A program made the position numbers and the translations under genes. 64,000 nucleotides of DNA from Odontesthes bonariensis (taxonomy: Eukaryota; Chordata; Actinopteri; Atheriniformes; Atherinopsidae): the NCBI RefSeq assembly GCF_027942865.1, contig NC_134524.1, positions 25,830,536 to 25,894,535 of the forward strand, given 5' to 3'. The notes under the pieces were generated by a model. It had not been told where the DNA came from and did not search any database. It was given only the letters and a program-made list of their open reading frames with translations. Positions 38,392 to 62,720 of the stretch are shown here, one piece after another; position 1 is the stretch's first letter, and every line of letters begins with the position of its first letter.

Positions 38392-41300
38392 ATGGACAAA
38401 GAGAATGACGCTGAGAAGGAAACATTAGAGGAGAACAATTCTCCTATTGATCAAAAAACACAGTCACATGACTTAAGTGTTGATTTTGAGATTGGCAGCA
38501 CTGATGACAATGAACCTTTGGGGTTAAATCCTGAGACTCCAAAGAGGGAGACCCCTACTCCTGCACAGGAGGAAGAAGAGGAGGCCACTGCTGGAGCTGA
38601 AAACAAAGAGGACATTTGTTGTGAAGGGTCCATTCTCCAGCTTCTCCAGGAGCTGTGCAAGCAGAGAGATGAAGCCAGTCAACAAAGCAGACAGCTGCAG
38701 ATGAAGTTGGCCGAGTACCTCAGCAAGAGGACCAGAGACGACAGCCAGCTGGGGAGGGAAAAGCCTGTGACAGATCAGCTGCAGGAGTATGAGAAGTACA
38801 TCAATATCCTGAATGATTTGAAGCAGCAGCTCTGTGCTGATTCAGAGTCAGCCCAGCGGCAGGCGGAAGAGCTGAGGTCACAATCCCAGGACAAGCTGGA
38901 AAAGGTTGGTGTGTGTGTGTAGGGAGGACAACTGAACTTTCTTTGAGCACGTCCTAAGAACTACAGGCATCTTTGACACTCTCTTGACACTAAAAATGCT
39001 GCAGTTGATTTGCAATTATGTGTGTCATACATGGAGTAACAAAAGCATGATGATTCTAAAAGTTGAAGAAAGTTTATTTGTAGAATAAGCAGAGGATGGA
39101 GTACCGAATGAGAAAAACACCACGGTTAAAATCAAAGTCAAATTTATTTGTAAAGCACATTTCATGAACAAAACAATTCAAAGTGCTTTACATAAAATTA
39201 AAGCATTGCAGTGGGGAGTGGAAGAACCATTAAAATACATAAAAGAACATAAAAAGAAAGAAAATAATTAAAAGGAAATTAAAATTATTAAAACAAGCAA
39301 CAGTCCAGATAAATTTAAAGATATCGTGCAGATTTCATGCATAGACATATGAGAAAAGAAATGTTTTTAACCTGGATTTAAAAATGGCTACATTTGGTGA
39401 AAGTTTAATCTCCACTGGCAGTTTGTTCCACTTGTTTGCAGCGTAACAGCTAAATGTTGCCTCTCCATGTTTATTCTGGACTGGACTAGCTGACCCAAGT
39501 CCTTGGGTCTAAGAGCTCTGCTAGGTTTATATTCTCTGAACATATCACAGATGTATTTTGGGCCTAAACCGTTCTGGGATTTGTAAACCATCAGCAGGCT
39601 TTTAAAATTTATTCTGACTGACTGGAAGCCAGTGTAAAGATTTTATAACTGGTGTGATGCGTTCAGATCTAATCTGATTTAATGAGCCATTCGCAGTTTC
39701 ACTGTACCGGCTGTGTTTTCTTAGACTTGCATGGTTTAATCTATGAGACAAGTATATGCTACTGGCAGGATCAATCGGACGCTAAAACTCTAGCAGCAGC
39801 GTTCTGGATGAGCAGCAGATGTTTAATGCTCTTTTTGGGAAGTCCAGTCAAAAGACCATTACAGTAATCAAGTCCACTGGAGATGAATGCATGGATGAGT
39901 TTCTCCTGGTCTTTTTTGGAGAGGAAACCTTTAATTCTGTTGATGTTTCTGAGATGGTAAAAAGCTGCTTTGGTGACAGCTTTGATATGGCTGCTGAAAG
40001 TCAGATCTGAGTCTATCAACACTCCGAGGTTACGAACTTGGCCAGTGATTGTAAGGTCCCGAGTCTCAAGATATTTACCAACGCTGACCCTCTTCTTTTT
40101 GCTCCCAAACAGAATGATCTCAGTTTTGTTTTCATTTAATTGTAGAAAATTCTCTCTCATCCAGGTGTTTACTTCCTCCAGACACTGACACAGTATGTCT
40201 GCTGGGCTGCAGTCGTCTGGTGACAGAGACACATAAAGTTGTGTATCATCTGCATAGCTGTGATAATTGATGTTAAAGTTCTGTAATATCTGACCCAAAG
40301 GGAGCATATACAAGTTAAACAGAAGAGGTCCAAGAATTGACCCCTGGGGGACTCCACAAGTCATGGCCACTCGCTCAGATTCATAGCCAAGTGTAACAAA
40401 ACAACTCCAACCTTCTAAGTAGGACCTCAACCAGGACTGCTCCAGAAAGTCCAACCCAGCTCCAGCCTGTGCAACAGGATTCCGTGATCTACAGCATCAA
40501 ACGCAGCGCTGAGATCCAACAGAACCAGGACTGAAACATTACCAGAATCAGTATTCAACCTAATGTCATTTAACACTTTGACAAGAGCCGTTTCAGTGCT
40601 GGGATGACGTCGGAAGTCTCATGCCCGAAAAGGGCTGTACACACAAAAGAACCCAAATGCAGATAGGGACTGAGTGGGAAGATCAAAAAACTGTTTATTA
40701 AGAGGAGTGGCTGGTGTGTGTGTCCAAAGAGGGTTGTATCCAGTTCAGGTGCTCACTGGGGAGAAACAGAAGCCGCTTTCGGACTGTAGGAACCTTTGGC
40801 AGTTCTAATAACCTTTTAATCCGCAGGGCCGTTTTCTCCCGTGTTCGGACATACAGGAACTCGGGGCTATCTCCCTTAGTTCCTATAACTATTTAGCTCC
40901 TTCTCCGAGGTCGGGTCTTTTCATGGTTCTATAGAACGCATCTGACGGAGGTGTGTGGTGGTTGGTAGCTACGCCCCATGTCATGCTATCACGGCTGAAA
41001 TGTTTCCTCATAAGACACAGACACAACCGGCGCGTGTTTAATAAGTTAAACTTACACTGGTCTCCTTTGTCTGCGGCGCTCTGCTCTCCTTCCTTCCTTC
41101 CTTCATGAAATGAAAAAGTATCGTCTCCTGACTCTCTCTGTGTGAGCTCTTCCAGCCTCGATATTAGACGCCTGATGTGATCGTCAATGATTAATATCAC
41201 CATCATGCAGACCATGAACACGGTGGCCTCCTAGCTCTCCATATTAGCTTCTTTGTGGTGTTTTTTCTTCTCTCCTTACTTTTACCGGGTTTTGTTTTGT

Positions 41301-49198: not shown

Positions 49199-49360
49199 TT
49201 TATTGTTTGCTGAAACACATAGAAAAAAACAAGCGATGACGACAGATCAGTCTACAAAAAATGCGTTACTGAACAAGGGAAAGCAGGAGGTTGCTTGTCA
49301 CTTGTGTTCCAGCATAATTGGGCTGAAGAGCTTGAATCTCATCGGCCTGATGCTTCTTCC
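49199..49360 (-). other. 3' untranslated region of the chemokine-like gene
   Basis: On the minus strand the stop codon at 49363-49361 is followed after about 160 bases by AATAAA (49204-49199), a plausible polyadenylation signal. Confidence 0.5.
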
Positions 49361-49729
49361 TCATTCATCTTGCACGTGCTGCTTCAGCAGCAGATCCTGG
49401 AACCTCGGCTGGAAGGAGTCGATACAAAATTCGGTTTTATCTTTCAGGGTGACACTGTAAGGAAAAAGCCATATAGCCTGCAGTTAGTATGAAGTACGTA
49501 CAACACAATGTTTATTAATGATTATCAATGAGAAGTTCCTGATCCTTAATGTTGAAAAGGTTTCAAAGAAGCATGAATCAATCTCTTTCACTGCATGTCC
49601 ATTTTTGAATGCAGAAATCTTACTAAATGAAGCGGGCACAGCCAGGTGACAACTCCACGTTGATGGATTCTACATCCTTTGTTTCTATGTTATTCCAGCT
49701 TGATGGGGGGCGACAGACACACCTCAAGG
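49361..49729 (-). other. Chemokine-like domain 3 (exons 8 and 9)
   Basis: Exon 8 (49729-49624) reads LRCVCRPPSSWNNIETKDVE, with the third cysteine in SPGCARFIY. Exon 9 (49454-49361) reads VTLKDKTEFCIDSFQPRFQD, then LLLKQHVQDE and stop. If spliced to exon 7 the residues before the CXC motif are TLR, close to the ELR of neutrophil-attracting chemokines. Confidence 0.8.
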
Positions 49730-50364
49730 CTGTAAAATAAACCTTATGTTGATTTCTTATGTTGACCTGAAATGGCTGGCATTTTGAAACCAAACAAGCT
49801 TTCATGAGCTCATAGCCCTATATTTAGGGTCGTCTTATTTACAGGTCAATTACAGTCTTGCAGCTTTCACAAGATGACAACTGATTAACTTTCAACGATG
49901 TCAACAAAGCACAAAACAACAAGACATGGAAAGCATTTAAGATACCTGGAGGTTGTAAGACAGAGTCTGGCTGAAGACCTGCATTTGAAAAGAGGAGTTC
50001 AACCAACAATTTTTTTTCTAGGCTTTCATCATAAGACCTGTAAAGATAGTGGAGAGTGTATTAGTTTTAACAGCAGAAGAGACCACATGCAACCAGTATT
50101 GACAGATCTCTTTTTTCACGGGAGCCTTTTTTCCACTGTTGGGATTCCTTTTCAAATCTCCCAATCTCAACAGCTGCTATTTGCGTCAGTGGAATACTTT
50201 CTCAACAGTAACAAGACAGGGATGATTTCTTTTCCTAATCCACAACGTTAAAGTTTTCCCTAGAATGCAAACTATTCCACAAACAGTCTCCCTATAGTCT
50301 CCACAGAACTTTAATCCAATAAGCAATGCTTCAATAATTTCCCAAACTGGGATGAATAAAGTAT

Positions 50365-50439
<75 letters not shown>

Positions 50440-53400
50440 ATGTGTGTGCAAACTGCACAAAAGAAAAGATTGAGGCATGGTCTGAAGCAATTCACTTTTT
50501 ATATTATCACGTAACCACTGACTCAGTGGGGTTACATAGCAGATTATTGGCCAAATTACAATAAGACTGAGTTGCTCCTTATTTGATTAAGGGTAATTAT
50601 CCTTGGATATATGGCGTAGAATGAATCGGATCAGAGGCACAAAGCATGTCATACTCCGATACGATAGGTGGCGCAGTACCCATTTCAACTATTGCAAGTA
50701 GAGCCACTTCCGGTTGACCGCTTCACCACCGACAACAACAACAGGAAACTCAGGCATTCGAGAAAATGGCGAACGAAGAGTAAGATGAAGCTACGTCCTT
50801 CTATATTTCGTCTGTGATGAGCTGCTTATTGCAAAAACGCGATGCACAACGACACATTCTCCATCGCGTTGTTTGTTTCTTTCCGACGGCGGCGACAGCA
50901 ACAGAAATATCGTCTCTTCCGACTTTTGGTTCACGACCCCGGGAAGAAATCTCGAGCATGCGCAGAACGCAAAGTCTATCACCACGTGCTTCACCGTCTA
51001 CAAGCACGTTTAATTTGACTTTCTCACAAATAACGAGTAATCCGATCTGATCCAATTTCTTGTCAGATTAAGGTGTCTTCATGAACTTAATCACTCATCC
51101 AAGTTATAATAATTATCCAAGGATAATTACCCTTGCTCAAATAAGGAGCAACTCAGTCTTATTGTAATTTAGCCAATAATCCAATCCTTTCAGTGCCATG
51201 TAACCCCACTGACTGTGATATGAAGAAGAATACAAATAGTAATTATTTTTTAAATTTTTTTATTCATCATTTTATTCATTGCATAAGGTATTATGCATAA
51301 AAACGTACTGACGGTGTTCTGAAAAACAGATGGACGCTGAAACAAACTGTGACTTTGATGACTATCTTATTAACCCATTAAAACCCAATGAGTCCTCCTT
51401 CCGTAGGAACTTAGTGTCCTGATTTACTCAGAGATATTTCAGCCTAAGCAGCATCAGTAGTAAGGAAGTTAACATTCTTACTGGAGATCTTTGTCTCTAT
51501 ATCAAAGAGAGAGAAGAGCTCTGTCAGAGAGACAGGTCTCCAGGTGGCAGCCTGCTGTAGATATGCATTATGCAGCGTAGGTATGGAAGAAGAAAAATAG
51601 ACTCTTTTGCCTGTATGACCAAAATGTCTCCTTTCAACTCTAGTTGCTTTCTGTCTAAAATACCCATCACACATCAGGTCTCCTTTTTTCAATCTTACAT
51701 TTGTACTTCAGGAGGGTTGAATGCAGTCGTACACACCTCCCTGCCGCCCTCTAGTGTCACACTGGAAAACAAGAGTTAGATTAGATTGCATTTCAGTTTC
51801 CTCAAGTTTAATAATAATAAAAAAAACTTTGAGTTCGGAGAAATTTACTGCAGACCACCATTTGCACACGTCACTGTGTTGCAAGCACATTTTTCAGGTG
51901 ATGAAAACGGCTTTTTTTTCTAAATTGAAATCTCTCATTTGCAAAAATGTTCAGTCCGTTTTCTGTGGCACTCCAACTTTTGGTCAAACTGTAAGGATGC
52001 TTAAAATTAGTTTAGACCTAAAATGGAGTCTTGTCGTGTCATACTAAAGGGTTTAGACATGGTTCAGATTGGGAGACGTTTCTGTGTGCAGGATCCTTCA
52101 GCTCACATTTTATGTCGGAACGAAAGCCGAGCCACAGAGCTCAGGAACTATCCGTAGACATGGAAAGATGGGCCATCTTGCCGCACAGTTTTCAAATGAA
52201 CCCTAATAGCATAAGGAAAAATATATATACGCTTGTCAGTAAAACTGGTCGGTAAAATCGAGCTATTTGTGGAGAACACTGCTTATCGCCTGTTAACGTC
52301 AGCAGCAGCCTCATCCTGGGAGGGATTCTCAGATTCAGGGCCAGGGTGACTAGGCAGAACTGCCAGCTATATTAACTCTGGGAGTTCAAAGAAGAAAACC
52401 TGCTCCAGATCGCATATGAGCTGAGACCTTAGGCACAGTTCACATTTTAGCTTGACAATGAACTAATGCAAAGAGCTAAGACAACACTGGAGTGGCTAAA
52501 AGTTAAGTCTGAGTGCTGTTGAACGGTCCAGCCAAAGCCCAGACTTAAGCCCCACATCACGTGTGTGGAGGGACCTCCACATGGAATTTGACGGGACCTG
52601 CTTCGAAGAGCGAGATCCATGGGCCAAACTAGTAGAAAGACCCACCCAAGAGGACCAAAATCCTAATGTCCATTAAAAGGGTGCCTGTAAAGTACTGAAT
52701 TTAAGGTCTGAACAATTTTAAGGGAGATTACAGCTTTTGATTAATAAGAACTAAGCAACATTTCATGAATGTGTTTTCACTAAGTCAGTATGGGTTATCA
52801 AATGCAGTCATAAGTGGTGTCCTGTGAACACATTTAGGGCTTCAATTTGTAAAATTTTATAAGTATATCATCTCGGACAGTCAAATAGCACTTACATGAA
52901 TTCAGTTGAACTGCATTTTTCACTGGGGGGCCAAATACTAATTTTTTTGACACGGGAGGTTTCAGAAGGATATCTCTTTTCTCTCTCTTTACAGCGACAG
53001 CCATCAACAACTTGGGGGAGAGAAAATATATATATATATATATATTATAAATTTTATTTTCAGGAGGTTGACTTTGAAAAAAAAAACATTCTTACTGGCT
53101 TTCCGAGCGGCGTCTTCACTGTCCTCTCGATGCTCGAGGATTTCCAGTTTCTGAAGCACTCTGCCGAGAGACAGGTTTGAACAGAACTTCCTTTTGTCTT
53201 TCTGGTAGATGCTGTGAGGAAATGGAAAGAAAAGCAAATCAATCACTCCTTTTCTTTCTGAAATGATACCACAGCTATGTGAATTACTGTGTTAAGAAAT
53301 GTCCACGAGACATTGTACACAAAACAAAATGCTAGCTCTCGTCAGTTTTCATTCTTTATGCAATGCAGTGTGATACCATTGTATCAGCTGTGTTGGTCCC

Positions 53401-56400
53401 ACGCGAGGTAAACACTACCAATTTTTCTGCTGTTAAATAAAGTACAATTTCAATATTTTGGCAGTCCAGATAGGTGTTTTTTTAAGTGAATAAATAAAAC
53501 AAATACAATCAAAATAGTGTTCGCAGGAGCCTTACTAAATTAGGGGAGGACAAGAGTAGGATTGAATGTTCACATCCAGGGACTCCACTGCCTTTGGGTC
53601 AACGTCATTCAAGTTTATCATGAGTAAATCGCAGGTTTTGCAAAGACCTGTAAATCCACAAGAGACCATGATCCACAAAATCCGGCACAATTCTGTTATC
53701 ATGTTAAATGGACGATGGAAAAACTCACCTTCGTCGGTGATGGAATCAGAATTTAGTTCATCTAGTTGCTCCTTTAATGTGAACGGAGGGGGCGCAAGCT
53801 GAGTGATCTTGGGTAATACTGTGGTTGGGTTCTGATCTCCAGCTTGGCCCCCTGGCAGTCCAACTGAGCCCTTTGTACCTGAGTCCTTTGGTGGTCGAGC
53901 TTGGCCCCCTGGCAGTTCCAGCAGGGACTCAACCTTCGACCCTGCTGGGCCCTTTGACCCTGCTGAGCCTATTGGCAGTCCAGGTGAGCCCTTTGGCCCT
54001 GTGACAGGTTTGGCTCCAAGTTTGAACCAGGAGCTGTGGGTGTGTTGAGTCATACATTCTTATCAGCAAATCAACTTAGGGGAAATTTTCACTCAGAGTT
54101 TGTAAATGTTTTTTCCTATAAGCCAGGAAATGGATTGCACATCAGATATTTGATTGTTGATCTACAACATATAGTTACTCTCAGACTACTATTACACTGC
54201 AGCAGCTTGGATCATTATGTTCTGAAAATGTTCTGAATACAACTGCTGCAATCTAAAGCTACCATATATTCTGTACCAAGTATCGTGCATACTTACAGAA
54301 TGTCCTCAAGGGATGGCATGGAGTTGAATGGAGGCACACAAACTTCCCTGCCATCTGCCAAAAATTCACTGAAAAATAGAGGTTAAAGTGTTTACAATTC
54401 GTTCATCTGATCCTGTTTACTTGAAAATGAACTAAATGTTATCTCAGTCATTATACTTCTATGTTATATGATGTGGTACCTGAAATGGATATATGCTATA
54501 ATGTTAAGGTTCTACATTATACTTACATTATCATTGTCATTTTTTTGTAAACCGTAAAAATGTTTGTTTGCTCGCTCGAGGTGGTTTTTATCTGTTTCAA
54601 AAAAGACTTGTCGTTCATTTTGGGGACAGGAAATAACTTTATAATGTGCATCTGACTGGGTAAAGATTAATTTGATGTGACTCACCAGCTGTTTCCTGTC
54701 TGAGCGGACAAACAGTCAATGCATGTGAATAACCGGCACGTTCCCCAATGTTATGTCTCGCCTGAGATTAAAGTAATTGTTGAGGAAGAGCTCTTTGCAT
54801 TTTCCCCTTCTGAGTGTCTACTACAGTTGATTTTTCCTGATCCAGGTTTGTTTTTGCTCAGAACAAATACTTCTTCTACTATATTACCAGTTGTACATGA
54901 GTTTTACCTAAGATTTTTGTGTATGTTGGTCAGATCCTGGACAAGCCCCCATTTAGTGCATTTTTACAAGCAGAAGCGGCACTAATTTGGATTAATTTTT
55001 TAAAAATTGGATTGAGGTTTTGCAATTTTACATTAACTGCCACAGTTATCAAAAATAGTCTATAAACTAAAGTGGCAACAATGTGATCCAGTTATTCTGG
55101 CATACTGATCCAGTTATTCTGGCACTTACATATATTCAAATGAAGCGCATGTTTTACTTGGGTACAATTTTGACTGACGAATGACTTCAGAGGTCTCAGT
55201 GGGCAGCTTCATCTTATTCTTATTTTTGCAGCGGCATCCGTGAAATCGTTCACCTGATATTCAATGAAAAAAGAATCATATGTTTACAAAGATACTCATT
55301 AGTGCTCTCAAAGATTGGCAAAGTGTTGTACGAATTATTACTAGTTTGACTTTCATTTAAAGACACAGCTATATGAACTATGAAAGTATTACAAGGTAGA
55401 TATTACAATACTTGTAAAAGTCTGAAAATAAGATTAGAATGATCAAATCAGTGCAAAGCAAACAATTTCTCACAAATAACGAATAATTTTACTGAAAGTA
55501 TTGCATCTGCCATATGTAAATTTGCACTATAGAACTTGAGCATATGATACGAAAAAGGCTCACTCTGACCATGAACAGGAGAAGGGGCTATCTTGGGTAC
55601 CACTGGATTATAATTTTCCTGGTCTGGTCTTTCCGGTTTGGGTAATTGGGGAATCAGATTGAGTGGTGAGGATCCCTGATTGGTTGGTTCAGTCGGCTGT
55701 TCGGTTGGGCGGTTTGACTTTGTGGGCAGCTGTGTACCAGGTTCAGAGCTGGTCCAATGAGAGTCATCTGGAATACGCAGACAGAACTCCCTATGATGCA
55801 TGGAAGTGTCAGGTCGAGGTGTTGTGTGTTCCCTCGACTCTGTGCCTGTGAGGAGTAGAAGCGCACCATGAATGATAAAGCAGCAGAATAAATACACTAG
55901 ATCGGTAGCGGGCTCTTCTTTTGGCTACACGTGTACTTTGTATTTGCATCAATAGCCCTGCTTTAATGACCTAAAATTCACACAAGCTCAACTGTTTGAA
56001 GTTGGGATGAATGACTGAAATATTTTCAAGAGCATAAAAGCAGTTCCATATAGGTTATGTTGAAGTGTTTGAAAGACTAACAGTCAAACTCTTGCTGCCT
56101 AGCAAAATTGTAAGTCAGTGGCCTTTGGTGAAAGCAGTTATCTAACTTCCCATAAGCCCACAGTAATTTCACCTAAAAAAAAACCTTCAGAATTCACATT
56201 GATCGTGACATACATTTCTACATTGGATTACTTATCGGTCGACTGGTTTAATTTTTAAGCAAAAGACATTTAAAGCTTCTTTCCATAAACAAATATACAT
56301 TCAAATGAATGAAAACAAAATAAAAGAATGAAAACGTGACTGCATATCCATGTCCATTTAAGAATAAAACAATTTGGTGTTTCTAGCAATCGTATTCATA

Positions 56401-56633
56401 TCATAAATGCATTTTGTGCCGATAATATTGAATCATAGCGACAAAATTTCTCGAATGTTAAGACTTCTTTTCATTTGTGATGAGGACAGTGATGCAAAAA
56501 CAGCCTTGTTCTGAGTAAAAGAAAAGAAAATTGTGCAATGTAGTCTATAAAGAAATCAGTCATTGAACTCACTCTCTTTAGTTGCTTGGAGCAGAAGAGT
56601 CACAAAAAGCAGTCTGCTGGCGATGAAGACCAT
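49361..56633 (-). CDS. Candidate secreted poly-chemokine (three chemokine-like domains)
   Basis: Nine minus-strand exons join in one frame: 56633-56573, 55845-55570, 55253-55130, 54368-54297, 54033-53729, 53647-53536, 53211-53096, 49729-49624, 49454-49361. All have GT-AG ends, and the summed length (1266 nt) gives 421 residues and one stop. Order: signal peptide (MVFIASRLLFVTLLLQ), Pro/Thr-rich segment, chemokine domain 1 (CRC...C...C), Gly/Pro linker, domain 2 (CKTC...C...C), domain 3 (LRCVC...C...C). Each domain has four cysteines and is split by a phase-2 intron after the third one, as in chemokine genes; units begin and end in phase 1. The start has A at -3 and G at +4. Neither domain 1 nor 2 has its own stop, and I found no convincing separate signal exon for domains 2 or 3. 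Exons are read by eye; joining 53.1 kb to 49.7 kb is the least certain. Separate or decayed chemokine genes remain possible. Confidence 0.65.
50038..50135 (-). pseudogene. Possible further fourth-cysteine exon
   Basis: 98 nt with acceptor and donor, phase 2-1, encoding GKKAPVKKEICQYWLHVVSS. The VKKEIC-W pattern resembles the last chemokine exon, but no intact CXC exon precedes it. A MITE and a microsatellite occupy that space. It could be a decayed copy or chance. Confidence 0.3.
50365..50438. repeat. (ATCT)n microsatellite
   Basis: About 18 uninterrupted units in the intron between exons 7 and 8 of the chemokine-like gene. Likely polymorphic. Confidence 0.95.
50521..51214. mobile_element. 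MITE with CAGTGGGG ends in the chemokine-like gene intron
   Basis: The left end CAGTGGGGTTACAT (50524) and the right end ATGTAACCCCACTG (to 51211) start inverted arms of about 100 bases (shared words GAGTTGCTCCTTATTTGA and GGTAATTATCCTTGGAT). The flanks are ACT on both sides (50521-50523, 51212-51214), a possible 3-base duplication. There is no transposase frame; the superfamily is uncertain. Confidence 0.8.
51482..51930 (-). pseudogene. Degenerate additional chemokine domain between domains 2 and 3
   Basis: A fourth-cysteine exon at 51761-51699 (VTLEGGREVCTTAFNPPEVQ) has good splice sites and phase 2-2, exactly like exon 4. It is followed by a possible linker exon at 51654-51482 (phase 2-1), like exon 5. 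Upstream, 51930-51815 has a CAC motif (TGTGCTTGC at 51889-51881), but the frame shifts before WWSAVNFSELKV and no clear third cysteine or donor follows. I read this as a decayed domain that is skipped. Confidence 0.5.
52440..52740 (+). mobile_element. Tc1-like transposase relic
   Basis: Bases 52485-52660 follow the end of fish Tc1 transposase genes: the words for EWLK, then ERSSQ-QSPDLSP and the downstream RDLH-GICFEERDPWAKL, with stops and frameshifts. Only a fragment remains. Confidence 0.5.
53096..53647 (-). other. Chemokine-like domain 2 (exons 6 and 7), CX2C
   Basis: Exon 6 (53647-53536) reads GLCKTCDLLM, then DPKAVESLDVNIQSYSCPPLI. Exon 7 (53211-53096) reads YIYQKDKRKFCSNLSLGRVL and a charged helix (EILEHREDSEDAARK). 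It lines up with domain 3 at VES-(L/I)-(D/N)-V and at C-x-x-x-I-Y. The first two cysteines are two residues apart, not one. Confidence 0.7.
53729..54033 (-). other. Exon 5: Gly/Pro-rich linker
   Basis: About 101 codons, phase 2-1. After SWFKLGAK come imperfect collagen-like Gly-X-Y and LPGGQA repeats (VTGPKGSPG, GSAGSKGPAGSK, GLPGGQAGDQ), then PPPFTLKEQLDELNSDSITDE. The DNA contains a repeated GGCCCCCTGGCAG unit, so the linker may vary in length between individuals. Confidence 0.7.
54297..55253 (-). other. Chemokine domain 1 (exons 3 and 4)
   Basis: Exon 3 (55253-55130) begins ERFHGCRCKNKNK and carries the third cysteine in PSKTCASFEY. Exon 4 (54368-54297) continues IEFLADGREVCVPPFNS, the usual DGREVC fourth-cysteine block, then MPSLEDIL. 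The C-terminal helix runs into the next exon as SWFK. There is no ELR before CXC. This is the clearest chemokine fold of the three. Confidence 0.85.
55570..55845 (-). other. Exon 2: Pro/Thr-rich segment before the first CXC motif
   Basis: This 92-codon, phase 1-1 exon lies between the signal peptide and the CXC motif. It is rich in Pro, Thr, Ser and Asn (NRPTEQPTEPTNQGSS, KIAPSPVHG) with one cysteine (REFCLRIPD). It resembles an O-glycosylated stalk. In CXCL16 and CX3CL1 such stalks follow the chemokine domain; here it precedes it. Confidence 0.7.
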
Positions 56634-59600
56634 CGTGGAATCGGATCCAACTGGTGTCGAGTTCTGAGTTTCACTCAGATGATATGCAGCTCTTAACTTT
56701 TTAGGAAGCTCATAATCTGATTCAGCAGCAAAGAAGGAAGGAAGTTATAGCTGAAGACTAGGCAACAAAATGTTCTGTTACAACTTCTATGATTTGTCAG
56801 ATGATTCTATTGAAAGTTCGGTGATGAATGATTTACATTTTGCTTCGACGAACCTTGGGGGTTTCAAGACAAACTATCAGTTACACAAACAAAGCGAATG
56901 CTGTTTTTTAAAGATAGCTAAATGAGGCCATCTCATATTTCTCTGTCTTAAAGGACTGGTTCATTTAAAATAGAGACATTCAACACTGTTAGGTTCCATG
57001 GCTCATTGTTTCAGGCCGGTATTCACACTCATACTTACAGAATTAATTAAATGCACTGGCCTGATGATGGACAAAGGAGGACTTATTTTCCTCATGTCAG
57101 CCTTTCAGTTGTGGAGCTCATAAATACTGTACCATTTCAAGGAAAAGTCCATATTAAACCAATCACAATCATAAAGGAAAGACTTCATTCTTGATATCAA
57201 TTTCTGTGTCCGTTTATTAAACCTTACAATTTGTCTGAGCTAAACTTATTATGAAACACTTTTCTGCTTTAAGTTTGTACAACAACCAAATGCAACAGTG
57301 AACACAATTCATCGCTCTCACCATTTATAATCATAAGACTTGATCCATAAAAAAAGAGAAATAAAGACTTTTTAGGAGGATTAGGGGCATTTGGGGCTTA
57401 CGTAACATTTTAAACTCTTAAATCTAAAACTTACATATCCTGTTAGCGTGTCCTTTTGATAATATCGACAGCTGAGTCATTTAACATTGTCAAAAAAAAA
57501 AAAAATTTTATTAACATGTTACCTAATCACAGATGTGAATTACAGGGTTTTCAAATGTTTAGAGCTTATCGGGTGAGAGCTATTTTCTAACGATGTCAAC
57601 ATAAATCACATAATAAGCCACACAAGTCTATAAAGTTGTCTGTTCACATTATTTGCAATACAATCCCAATACAGGAGGAAAAACACAGCGGAATTTTACA
57701 AAAACTCAAAGTTTATTCAATCGCAACATTGTCCTTCTGGAGATACTGTACATGAAGGATTCTTTAAAGACCTCGATGGAGCGGCACCAGAGTATAAAAG
57801 TCACCTCACCCGGAAAAGGGAAACTGGGCACCCTGCTGGAGCCAGGCCTGAAACAACCTCGCCCCCCTCGGATCTGGATCCTGGGGCCCCAAAGAAGAGT
57901 CAGGAAGCCACTGACCGGCAAGGTTGTTTCAGGTAAATTGGCAAATTCTCAAGTCTTACTTTAAATTAAACGCTTACGAATGATGAAGTTGTTGTGGAAA
58001 TGCCAATATAAGTCACATATACAGTACCTTATGCCAAGTGTTTATTATTATTATTTAAGTGTCTTGAGATGACATTTGTTGTATTTGGCGCTATATAAAT
58101 AAAAATGATCTTTATTGGCTCTTTATTGTCGTCATAACAGCATGTCATCATGAGTGCTATTGAAGGGAATGAACAAACAACCTATATGACCATTTTAGTT
58201 TGTGAAAACTTGCTGATCTGAAAATATGAGGCCGAGGGAGACATTCTTTCAAACAGACTTTTTTTTCTTTATTTTTAGCTTTTATAATTTCATGAAGGAG
58301 ACAACTCTGAAATGATACCTCGGACCCATTTATCATCTGGGTGAACACATATTTTCATTCCTCTTCTGGTGGTCAGCCTATTAATGAGAAAATAAGATTT
58401 TACACTGTTAGCTGTAAACATTCCTTTACAATAAAAACACTCATACTGTTTTTTCTTTTACTTACACAACAGCCTTGATAGGACACCCATAAGTTATTGA
58501 GTAATCTGCAATGTGTGATCGTGGTATTCTGATGTTAGATAATGCCAAACAGCATAAAGTATTGGTTTGTTAGCATTCTGCTTTTATTCACATTTTACAC
58601 AGTGACCAGACTTTTGGGGATTAAGACTGTAGCACGTGTCTCCAGTTTTGCTCGCCAATGCACAGAATAGCAATACTGACAGGTACAGACTGATTAATGT
58701 AGTCTTGAGTGTCCCCACAGGCTTGCTCAGGATATAAATTAGTTACTCCAATGACACCAGCTGCATGAGAACAAAAATACACCATAGGTACATTTACACA
58801 GCACCTGTGATATCTATCAAAGTACAGTTCAGCAGCTCTGCCACAGTTTTAAATTTTAAGAGGCTTCTCTAATTTCAGTTCTAGTCCGTATTATCACAAT
58901 GGAGAAATCTCTAATTGATGGTTATATTGTGATTATTGTGATTTCATTCACCTGAGAAGCTGCTGATATTTTGTCTGGCTTGATGAACAAATATGAACAT
59001 TAATGTAAGCATTCTCAAATGGCGCTGCCCTAGAGGCAATAGAGAAAGTGCTTCTTCTCTGCATGAGGTTATCAGTGTCTCACATCATCGTGGGGGAATT
59101 TTGGTCCTCTCTTCTGTGCAGTGTTGCTTCAGTTCATTAAGATTCGCACCATCTGTTTATGCACAGCTCTCTTAAGGCCCCACCACAGCATTTCAATCAG
59201 GTTGAGGTCTGGACTTTGACTGGACCATTGCAACACCTTGATTTTTTTTCCTTTTTCAGTCGTTCAGTTGTGGATTTGCTGCTGTGTTTGGGATCAATTC
59301 AATTCAATTCATTTTTATTTATATAGTGCCAAATACAACAAATGTCATCTCAAGGCACTTAGATAATAAAGTCCAATTCAAGCCAATTGGAATTCAATTA
59401 ATTGTAATCATAATTATTCATAAAATAATCCAATTCGTTCATATAGAGCCAATTCAAAAACATTGAATCATGTAAAAGGATCATTGTCCTGTTACATGAC
59501 CCACTTTCAGCCAAGCTTTAGCTGACAGACAGAAGGCACATTTGACTCTAAAATACTTTGGCATACAGAGGAGTTCATTGAGGACTCAATGACTGCAAGG

Positions 59601-60840: not shown

Positions 60841-60865
60841 ATTATGATCTGCATTTTTAAGAAAT

Positions 60866-62720
60866 TTGTTTGGAATTAGTTCAAATGGAGAATTGGAGAA
60901 TTTTGAGCATGGCAATGAATCTGGAAGGTTCCTAGCAAATCAATTAAAGATAAACAAAGAGAAAACAACAATCTCTTCGGTTAGGGATTCGGAAGGAAAT
61001 ATTACCCATGACCCTGATGTAATCAACAATGCTTTTAGGATCTTCTACAAAGCCTTATATTCATCACAAAATGATCCACCAGACAGAAACATAGATCAGT
61101 TTCTTAGTAACATCAACCTCCCAAAATTACAACTCGAACAGGCCACGGCTCTGGATTCACCTCTCTCAACAGGAGAACTCCATGAAGCCCTTCAACATAT
61201 GCCTAGTAACAAAGCCCCAGGACCAGATGGTTTTCCAGCTGAGTTCTACAAAGAATTTTGGACTGTTTTGGAACCTACATTTCACAAAATGGTTTTACAA
61301 GTCAAGGAGAATGGCAGATTATCCCCTAACATGAACTCTGCTAACATTATCCTTCTACAGAAACCAGGAAAAGACCCTGTACTTCCATCCAGCTACCGCC
61401 AAATATCACTAATAAAAGTAGACCTCAAAATAATCTGCAAAGCTCTCGCCAAAATAATAGAAAAAATAACTCCCCTTATAATACATCCTGACCAGACAGG
61501 TTTTATAAAGGGTAGACACTCATCCACTAACACACGCAGACTAATTAATCTCATAGATTATTCTACCATCAACAACTTGGAAACCACAATTGTCTCTCTA
61601 GATGCTGAAAAAGCATTTGATAAAGTTAACTGGAAATTTTTATTTGCAGCATTAAACAAATTCGGGTTTGTTTCGTACTTCATTAATTGGATAAGGATAC
61701 TATATAGCTCCCCAAATGCATGAGTCAGGACAAATGATCAAATTTCTCTAAGCTTTAGTCTGCAGAGAGGTACCAGACAGGGTTTCCCACTTTCACCCAC
61801 ACTTTTTGCCATCTTAATCGAACCTTTAGCAGCTGCTATCAGACAAGATGGAAATATTAAAGGCATCCATCCCAAAAATATTAAACATAAAATAAGTCTT
61901 TATGCTGATGATGTATTACTTTTCCTTCAGAACTCAGAGACATCTCTCACTCACACGATCACACTCATAAATAAATTCTCAGCACTTTCTGACTACTCTA
62001 TCAACTGGTCTAAGACCACAGTTCTGCCCATCAACTGTAGTTTCAAGAATACACCTGCTATCACTTTACAGTCAGGAAATATTAGATACTTAGGCATAAA
62101 CATTTCCTCCAGGCTGTCAGAGCTAACAAAGCTAAATTATGTTCAACTCTTAAAGACAGTAGAGGATGATCTCACTCGTTGGAAGTTGTAGCAGTCACAG
62201 TGCCGTGTGGATTAAGAGTTTTTCAAACTTTGACAAAACCAACATTCCTGTGGGGGATGTTTACGTATGTGGATATAAACCAGATCTTCATTTTCTTTCC
62301 ACAAAGGAAAAAGAGACAGAAACTGCCTAATTTACGTTCACCTTCTACCCTTTTGGGAGTGAAAAATAAGCAACAGACACTTACAATAAAAATTGGGATA
62401 GACTCTAACGAACAAAGAACTCACTCTTGGAAAAGTGGGACACTTACTATCTTATCTGGACCATAACTCGAAAGTTGACACTTTAACACCCCTTTTCACC
62501 AGCAAACCGACCAGATGGCTACATACGAACTGAGAAGACTTCATAAGACTCACTTTTAGTCGAATATTAAAACTATATTAAATGTGTTTGATAACCGTGT
62601 ACAATTTCTTTCAGGTTTCCAGCTTGATCACAAGACGCATATAGAGACAATTTGTACGATTCTGGCTTAAATATTGACGAAGAAACAAACTTGTTGGAAA
62701 ATGCCCAACCTGCCTGATGG
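60866..62720 (+). mobile_element. L1-type LINE ORF2 fragment (reverse transcriptase)
   Basis: The frame 60866-61723 carries the L1 signatures NKAPGPDGFPAEFYK, SYRQISLI, HPDQTGFIKGR and SLDAEKAFDKVNW. One in-frame TGA (61721-61723) interrupts it. The same frame then continues with RGTRQGFPLSPTLFA, SLYADDVLLF and IRYLGINIS to about 62190. Thereafter frames break, and a Cys-rich remnant appears near 62690. The endonuclease half and the 3' end are missing, so it is dead. Confidence 0.85.

Follow-up and report, generated by a model that had tools for sequence, protein, structure and literature searches.

Chemokines are treated as single-domain ligands whose signals are combined through separate genes and non-covalent dimers. 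A locus on contig NC_134524.1 of the fish Odontesthes bonariensis (RefSeq assembly GCF_027942865.1) raises the question of whether several chemokine domains may be encoded in one reading frame behind a single signal peptide. We analysed a window of 64,000 nucleotides (positions 25,830,536 to 25,894,535 of the forward strand; window coordinates are used throughout), in which an initial annotation made from the letters of the sequence had noticed a candidate protein with three chemokine-like domains. That observation is real and larger than first reported, and the candidate has four units. In our analysis the region 56633-49361 is likely to be one minus-strand gene of 12 exons (E1-E12) encoding a single secreted protein with four chemokine-like units (D1-D4), which would have originated from a pair of CXC-type domains, A-B, duplicated as a five-exon module to give the order A-B-A'-B'.

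Exon structure of the proposed four-unit gene

The nine minus-strand exons initially described show GT-AG ends and can be spliced together with no intervening stop, into 421 codons if the second exon ends at the donor at 55570 or into 423 if it ends at 55564, where the donor is better. Besides a single signal exon and a segment rich in Pro, Ser and Thr, they contain the three units of four cysteines that had been named by their CRC, CKTC and CVC motifs, each with a first exon running from phase 1 to phase 2 and an intron just past the third cysteine. The presence of several chemokine-like domains behind one signal exon therefore stands, but the count of three is ruled out by three skipped exons (E8-E10) that encode a fourth unit. 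The 12-exon model (Table 1) has GT-AG ends throughout, compatible phases and a length of 1542 bases including the stop codon, which gives 513 open codons; no stop, frameshift or lost splice dinucleotide was found across the 12 exons. The predicted product starts with the signal exon and the Pro/Ser/Thr-rich segment, followed by D1, a long Gly/Pro-rich linker and the closely spaced D2, D3 and D4. In all four units a phase-2 intron directly follows the third cysteine, and each unit opens in phase 1. An exon such as E10 is required because E9 ends in phase 2 and E11 starts in phase 1. The splice scores of E8, E9 and E10 (acceptors 14, 14 and 14; donors 8, 7 and 7 of 9) are on par with those of the other exons, and the E8 donor scores highest among the first exons of the four units. 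Donor scores are lowest in E6 and E11, the exons that open D2 and D4 (5 of 9). At the donor of E5 all 9 of 9 positions agree with the consensus.

The chance expectation of such unit-like first exons was estimated by shuffling. Under strict splice cut-offs only two of the four real first exons pass, and hits average 0.033 (maximum 2) in 300 shuffles of the gene region and 0.25 in 60 shuffles of the whole window. The cut-offs were loosened after this result so that all four first exons pass, with both strands scanned and hits counted by exon end; the 64 kb window then yields four hits, which are the four units (the D2 entry starts at 53728 and runs through intron 5). With the same settings 500 gene-region shuffles have a mean of 0.056 and a maximum of 3, none reaching 4, and 74 kb of real flanking sequence gives three hits, none of them chemokine-like by eye.

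A single transcript spanning all four units is what we infer from this exon chain. It is unlikely that the locus instead gives alternative shorter isoforms, with the four-unit protein rare or absent, although certain features of the sequence would permit them. Joining E7 to E11 is also in frame and open and would give a three-unit form, and reading on past the donor of E4 or E9 meets an immediate stop, as would occur if introns 4 or 9 were retained and the product ended after D1 or D3. For intron 9 this stop is combined with AATAAA motifs at 51276 and 51264, about 420 bases past E9, which would allow a product ending after D3; AATAAA is also present within introns 7 (53058) and 11 (49516). These points speak for shorter products and against the four-unit protein as the product of the locus. 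On the opposite side stand the strength of the E8 donor and of the E8, E9 and E10 acceptors, and the fact that the unit dropped in the three-unit form, D3, has the strongest Pfam match. In intron 4, neither AATAAA nor ATTAAA is among the listed motifs.

Table 1. Exons of the predicted four-unit gene, in transcript order
Exon	Content	Coordinates	Strand	Phase (start to end)	Remarks
E1	Start codon and signal peptide exon (MVFIASRLLFVTLLLQATKE)	56573..56633	-	0 to 1	
E2	Pro/Ser/Thr-rich segment, ~95 residues (22% S+T, 18% P)	55564..55845	-	1 to 1	Weaker alternative donor 55570
E3	D1 first half, CRC...C	55130..55253	-	1 to 2	
E4	D1 fourth cysteine and beginning of helix-like stretch	54297..54368	-	2 to 2	
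E5	D1 end and long Gly/Pro-rich linker	53729..54033	-	2 to 1	Imperfect repeats, 57-63 nt spacing
E6	D2 first half, C-X2-C (CKTC)...C	53536..53647	-	1 to 2	
E7	D2 fourth cysteine, helix-like stretch, short linker	53096..53211	-	2 to 1	
E8	D3 first half, GCRC...C	52896..53010	-	1 to 2	Absent from nine-exon model
E9	D3 fourth cysteine	51699..51761	-	2 to 2	Absent from nine-exon model
E10	D3 helix-like stretch and short linker	49946..50037	-	2 to 1	Absent from nine-exon model
E11	D4 first half, CVC...C	49624..49729	-	1 to 2	
E12	D4 fourth cysteine, helix-like stretch, stop codon	49361..49454	-		AATAAA begins at 49204, past the stop codon

The linker part of E5 contains, at 53839-54001, three imperfect copies of a stretch of 43 nucleotides, placed 57 and 63 nucleotides apart, with a Gly/Pro-rich, collagen-like reading; the length of the linker may therefore differ between individuals or species. 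E2 and E5 were also considered as duplicated linkers, given that their endings are alike by eye, but this candidate was rejected, as 20.5% of 1000 shuffles reach the same score.

Relationship of the units to CXC chemokines

The whole predicted protein matches the Pfam profile PF00048 over three stretches (E 5.4e-13, 49.4 bits; cut-off 21.3), and D3, the best of the four units, exceeds the cut-off on its own (E 5.3e-6, 27.0 bits). With a profile of the four units, sequences of solved structures are recovered, 39 of them with E values of 0.01 or below and the best at 6.2e-9; they are named as CXC chemokines or as chimeras and variants thereof. Among the individual units the best matches in the PDB are CXCL2, CXCL3 and GRO for D3, CXCL7 and GRO for D4, and CXCL8 for D1, the last with an E value of only 0.016. 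These three units have a C-X-C motif and canonical spacing, with cysteines at residues 121/123/150/166 (D1), 362/364/390/406 (D3) and 451/453/478/493 (D4). Both this spacing and a phase-2 intron just after the third cysteine are expected for chemokines, and the signal peptide, as judged by hydropathy, lies on an exon of its own (E1) with a phase-1 donor. At the level of sequence, these similarities establish D1, D3 and D4 as relatives of the CXC chemokines.

Some results weigh against four chemokine domains. Taken singly, D1 (E 0.0013, 19.3 bits) and D4 (E 0.00058, 20.4 bits) fall just under the PF00048 cut-off, D2 alone has no match to this profile, and in NCBIfam, which is built for prokaryotes, no unit matched a chemokine. 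The profile of D2 and D4 aligns only weakly with that of D1 and D3 (hhalign probability 3.7, E 0.012). Furthermore, four places reached an E value of 0.001 or below in a genome-wide PF00048 search, and no exon of this gene is among them, probably because single exons score too low. To these may be added the features of D2 itself, whose cysteines (284/287/314/329) form a C-X2-C motif that lies outside the CXC spacing, which lacks a pairwise match to D1, and whose best PDB match is a designed TIM barrel (E 0.0053), ahead of CXCL10 (0.49). A CXCL16 profile matches D2 weakly (13.1 bits, cut-off 27).

It is nevertheless rather improbable that D2 is an unrelated four-cysteine segment. D2 and D4 share 35% identity across 57 residues, with E 3e-8 when this comparison is taken singly and a score that 0 of 2000 shuffles reach; their third and fourth cysteines are in register, and their introns are in the same place. 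CXCL10 is also the only natural protein among the six PDB matches of D2 (three chains, E 0.49-0.75). The assignment of D2 rests mainly on this likeness to D4, and D2 presumably keeps the chemokine fold.

Probable duplication of a two-domain module

The phases of the exons had been taken initially to permit whole domains to be duplicated in tandem without breaking the frame. In-frame duplication is borne out by the repetition of the exon phases, which read (1-2)(2-2)(2-1)(1-2)(2-1) and then (1-2)(2-2)(2-1)(1-2)(2-end), but the duplicated piece appears to be a module of two domains and five exons (D1+D2 to D3+D4) and not a single domain. D1 and D3 are 49% identical over 53 residues. In a shuffle test with 2000 permutations of each pair, the scores of D1-D3, D2-D4 and D3-D4 were never reached and that of D1-D4 was reached in 0.1%; the scores of D1-D2 (30%) and D2-D3 (93%) were not significant. 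Because D1 resembles D3, D2 resembles D4 and both halves share their exon phases, the simplest history is probably the duplication of a two-domain, five-exon module. Likeness in DNA is also seen in register at matching exon ends, namely 52888-52928 with 55122-55162 (78%) and 49611-49640 with 53523-53552 (73%); short two-copy families reported by the repeat finder are often chance matches.

The alternative that the two halves represent a recent assembly duplication was ruled out, as the aligned domain codons are only 58% (D1-D3) and 54% (D2-D4) identical in nucleotides. Over 52 hand-aligned codons D1-D3 gave 1.45 silent changes per silent site (Ks) and 0.48 replacement changes per replacement site (Ka), and the values for D2-D4 were 1.89 and 0.57 over 54 hand-aligned codons, excluding the stretch with the first two cysteines. 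Per site, silent changes thus exceed replacement changes between the duplicates (pooled Fisher P 4e-5, from rounded counts). This contrast is approximate because Ks is near saturation, and it reflects past and not present constraint; it points to the maintenance of both halves as coding sequence over much of their history.

One gene, several genes or a decaying cluster

The introns that precede D2, D3 and D4 (introns 5, 7 and 10) measure 81, 85 and 216 bp, and introns 5 and 7 are so short that promoters and signal exons of their own would hardly fit ahead of D2 and D3. A scan of start codons from 57400 to 49455 found that 11 of 152 ATGs begin a hydrophobic stretch, of which E1 is the strongest (8-residue hydropathy 3.16) and is followed by a good phase-1 donor. 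A tight packing of two or more genes, with D2-D4 or D2 alone translated from their own start, is in our view very unlikely. One candidate start of this kind, and a point against a single gene, is the ATG at 53702 within intron 5, which reads MITELCRILWIMVSCGFTG directly into D2 and might serve as a poor signal peptide (8-residue hydropathy 2.46). Intron 5 itself (53728-53648) consists of 81 nucleotides, or 27 open in-frame codons, and its retention would also keep the frame while changing the product. However, an arginine interrupts the hydrophobic core of this reading, E1 has both the stronger hydropathy and a normal phase-1 donor, and the donor of E5 is the perfect one mentioned above. Past E4, moreover, the scan gave no further hydrophobic start that is followed by a GT in phase 1; those at 50959 and 50088 lack one, and 50088 is out of frame with E10.

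A separate scan over parts of the region and 3 kb upstream listed, besides E1, three more signal-like starts ahead of it, at 59012, 57324 and 57312, which could be alternative first exons or parts of neighbouring genes. The first of these opens a hydrophobic stretch, 59012-58952, with a good phase-1 donor (score 8), and could be another first exon or a piece of a neighbouring CC chemokine gene.

That the locus is a decaying cluster of chemokine exons, once functional but with its duplicated exons now unexpressed, is equally hard to credit: CC chemokine gene pieces lie nearby, and a zebrafish survey describes exons resembling those of chemokines beside or inside intact genes of the family, most of them perhaps pseudogenes (PMC2416438), but the 12 exons here are intact although the aligned domain codons of the two modules differ at 42-46% of their bases, and silent changes exceed replacement changes per site.

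Predicted product and possible functions

The single secreted protein encoded by the 12 exons would have about 490 residues in its mature form, with a mass of about 54.6 kDa without the signal, a pI (isoelectric point) of about 5.8 and one N-glycosylation motif. The predicted protein contains no ELR motif and no transmembrane segment, the most hydrophobic 19-residue windows lying within the signal and the best mean elsewhere being 0.77. Its sole furin-like motif, REKR at residue 367, is situated inside D3 and not in a linker, which speaks against simple release of the units by furin. Classical activation of chemokine receptors needs a free N-terminus before the first cysteine. D2, D3 and D4 are internal and D1 is preceded by about 95 Pro/Ser/Thr-rich residues, such that no unit has a free N-terminus. 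Both features count against the original proposal, in which the domains could engage several receptors or be cut into separate ligands.

As no unit has a free N-terminus, a multivalent ligand or scaffold, or else a precursor that is cut, is favoured. The most likely role, as judged from the predicted sequence, would be that of a multivalent ligand or scaffold of chemokine-like character. Such a protein, soluble, mildly acidic and lacking ELR, might have several points of contact with chemokine receptors, with chemokines or with glycosaminoglycans, and its main action would be that of a non-classical modulator. Conversion into several classical agonists would require proteases to cut the linkers and so free the N-termini of the domains. 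Storage of chemokines as proforms, some of them activated by proteolysis, has been described (PMC6351468). The fuller proposal, that the locus encodes a natural poly-chemokine of four linked CXC-type domains in the order A-B-A'-B' with an N-terminal mucin-like segment, selectively kept as a multivalent scaffold or a precursor of several ligands, is one that we put forward tentatively and with somewhat less than even confidence.

Provided that the transcript exists, several immune signals could be united in a single molecule, which would carry or release them, and the gene would provide a natural test of whether linked domains work as multivalent ligands, decoys or precursors. It would also show that the intron phases of chemokine genes permit repetition of the domain within one gene. 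Surveys that proceed gene by gene may split or miss loci of this kind.

Comparison with known chemokine systems

The predicted gene shares with the CXC chemokines (PF00048; CXCL1-3, CXCL7, CXCL8 and CXCL10 among the structures) the C-X-C spacing, the conserved third and fourth cysteines, the signal exon, the succession of phase-1 and phase-2 introns and, for D1, D3 and D4, the sequence match. It differs from them in having four units in one frame, a mildly acidic product, no ELR motif, no free domain N-termini and, in D2, a C-X2-C motif. At the human CCL15-CCL14 read-through locus neighbouring chemokine units are likewise found in one transcript, but there each unit retains its own start and signal, whereas here all units are in one frame behind E1. 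The C-terminal mucin stalk and transmembrane helix of the CX3CL1/CXCL16 class are not present. According to zebrafish work, chemokine genes generally have three or four coding exons (PMC2416438); this small, single-domain format of the CXC family is exceeded here by four units, 513 codons and 12 coding exons. CX3CL1, CXCL16 and the long zebrafish proteins CXCL-chr24a/b/d (PMC2416438) resemble the predicted protein in carrying a Ser/Thr/Pro-rich segment on a chemokine domain, but here the rich segment is N-terminal to the first domain, no transmembrane segment is present, and the units number four.

Unusual use of duplicated CXC exons in fish is also known from On-CXC1 and On-CXC2 of the Nile tilapia; these are two products with shared first exons and later exons from different places, and the available excerpt mentions no multi-domain product (PMC7409096). 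In piscine toti-like viruses the third open reading frame (ORF3) encodes a signal peptide and one chemokine-like domain within a longer protein (PMC8229945); these proteins are viral and have one domain each, unlike the 12-exon cellular gene with four units. CXCL17 has been described as containing two CXC motifs, but it has six cysteines in all and no repeated four-cysteine domains (PMC8320810). A literature search, which covered open-access papers, found no multi-domain chemokine among the papers listed, in agreement with the initial impression that no family of this kind had been described, and the undescribed status of the four-unit gene is accordingly provisional. Searches for synteny papers that name the flanking genes together with chemokines gave a single paper, unrelated by its title, and passages of PMC3568907, PMC4690017 and PMC8811506 contain nothing on such a gene.

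Genomic context

The genome searched comprises 945 Mb in 187 contigs. The whole protein matched only its own 12 exons (12 places), in a search that scored only 13 candidates and could thus miss distant paralogs. With D3 as the query, for which only four candidates were scored, the matches were two exons of D3 itself, the exon of D1 and, at chance level (E 7.6), one place on another contig. A search for relatives on viral contigs gave 33 pattern matches, none of which was confirmed.

On one side the neighbouring genes carry GrpE, ADA2-type and CCDC113/CCDC96 domains by Pfam, and we take them to be GRPEL1, TADA2B and CCDC96. On the other side, past the end of the window, CC chemokine-like exons form an array on the minus strand, as read by eye from a motif scan; one of them is also matched by PF00048. 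These exons are upstream of the gene and on the same strand, the nearest pieces, still within the window, at about 58.3-58.6 kb and further ones at about 92, 94, 107, 116-117, 124 and 138 kb, so that a CXC-type gene adjoins a CC chemokine array. A near-identical reading, RCCVNVPM.YFCS.AAGVIGVT.LYPEQACGDTQDYI.QS, occurs three times in the region of this array (58803, ~97731 and ~120937), and is perhaps part of a repeated array unit.

Mobile and repetitive elements are also seen around and within the gene. Fragments of RVT_1 reverse transcriptases of retroelements are present at 39774-40496 (minus strand) and 60848-61720 (plus strand). Intron 9 contains a stretch of 640 bp (50542-51181) with inverted ends of 68 nucleotides that are 96% complementary, resembling a small DNA transposon, and adjoining it is a 4-base (GATA/TATC) microsatellite at about 50362-50440.

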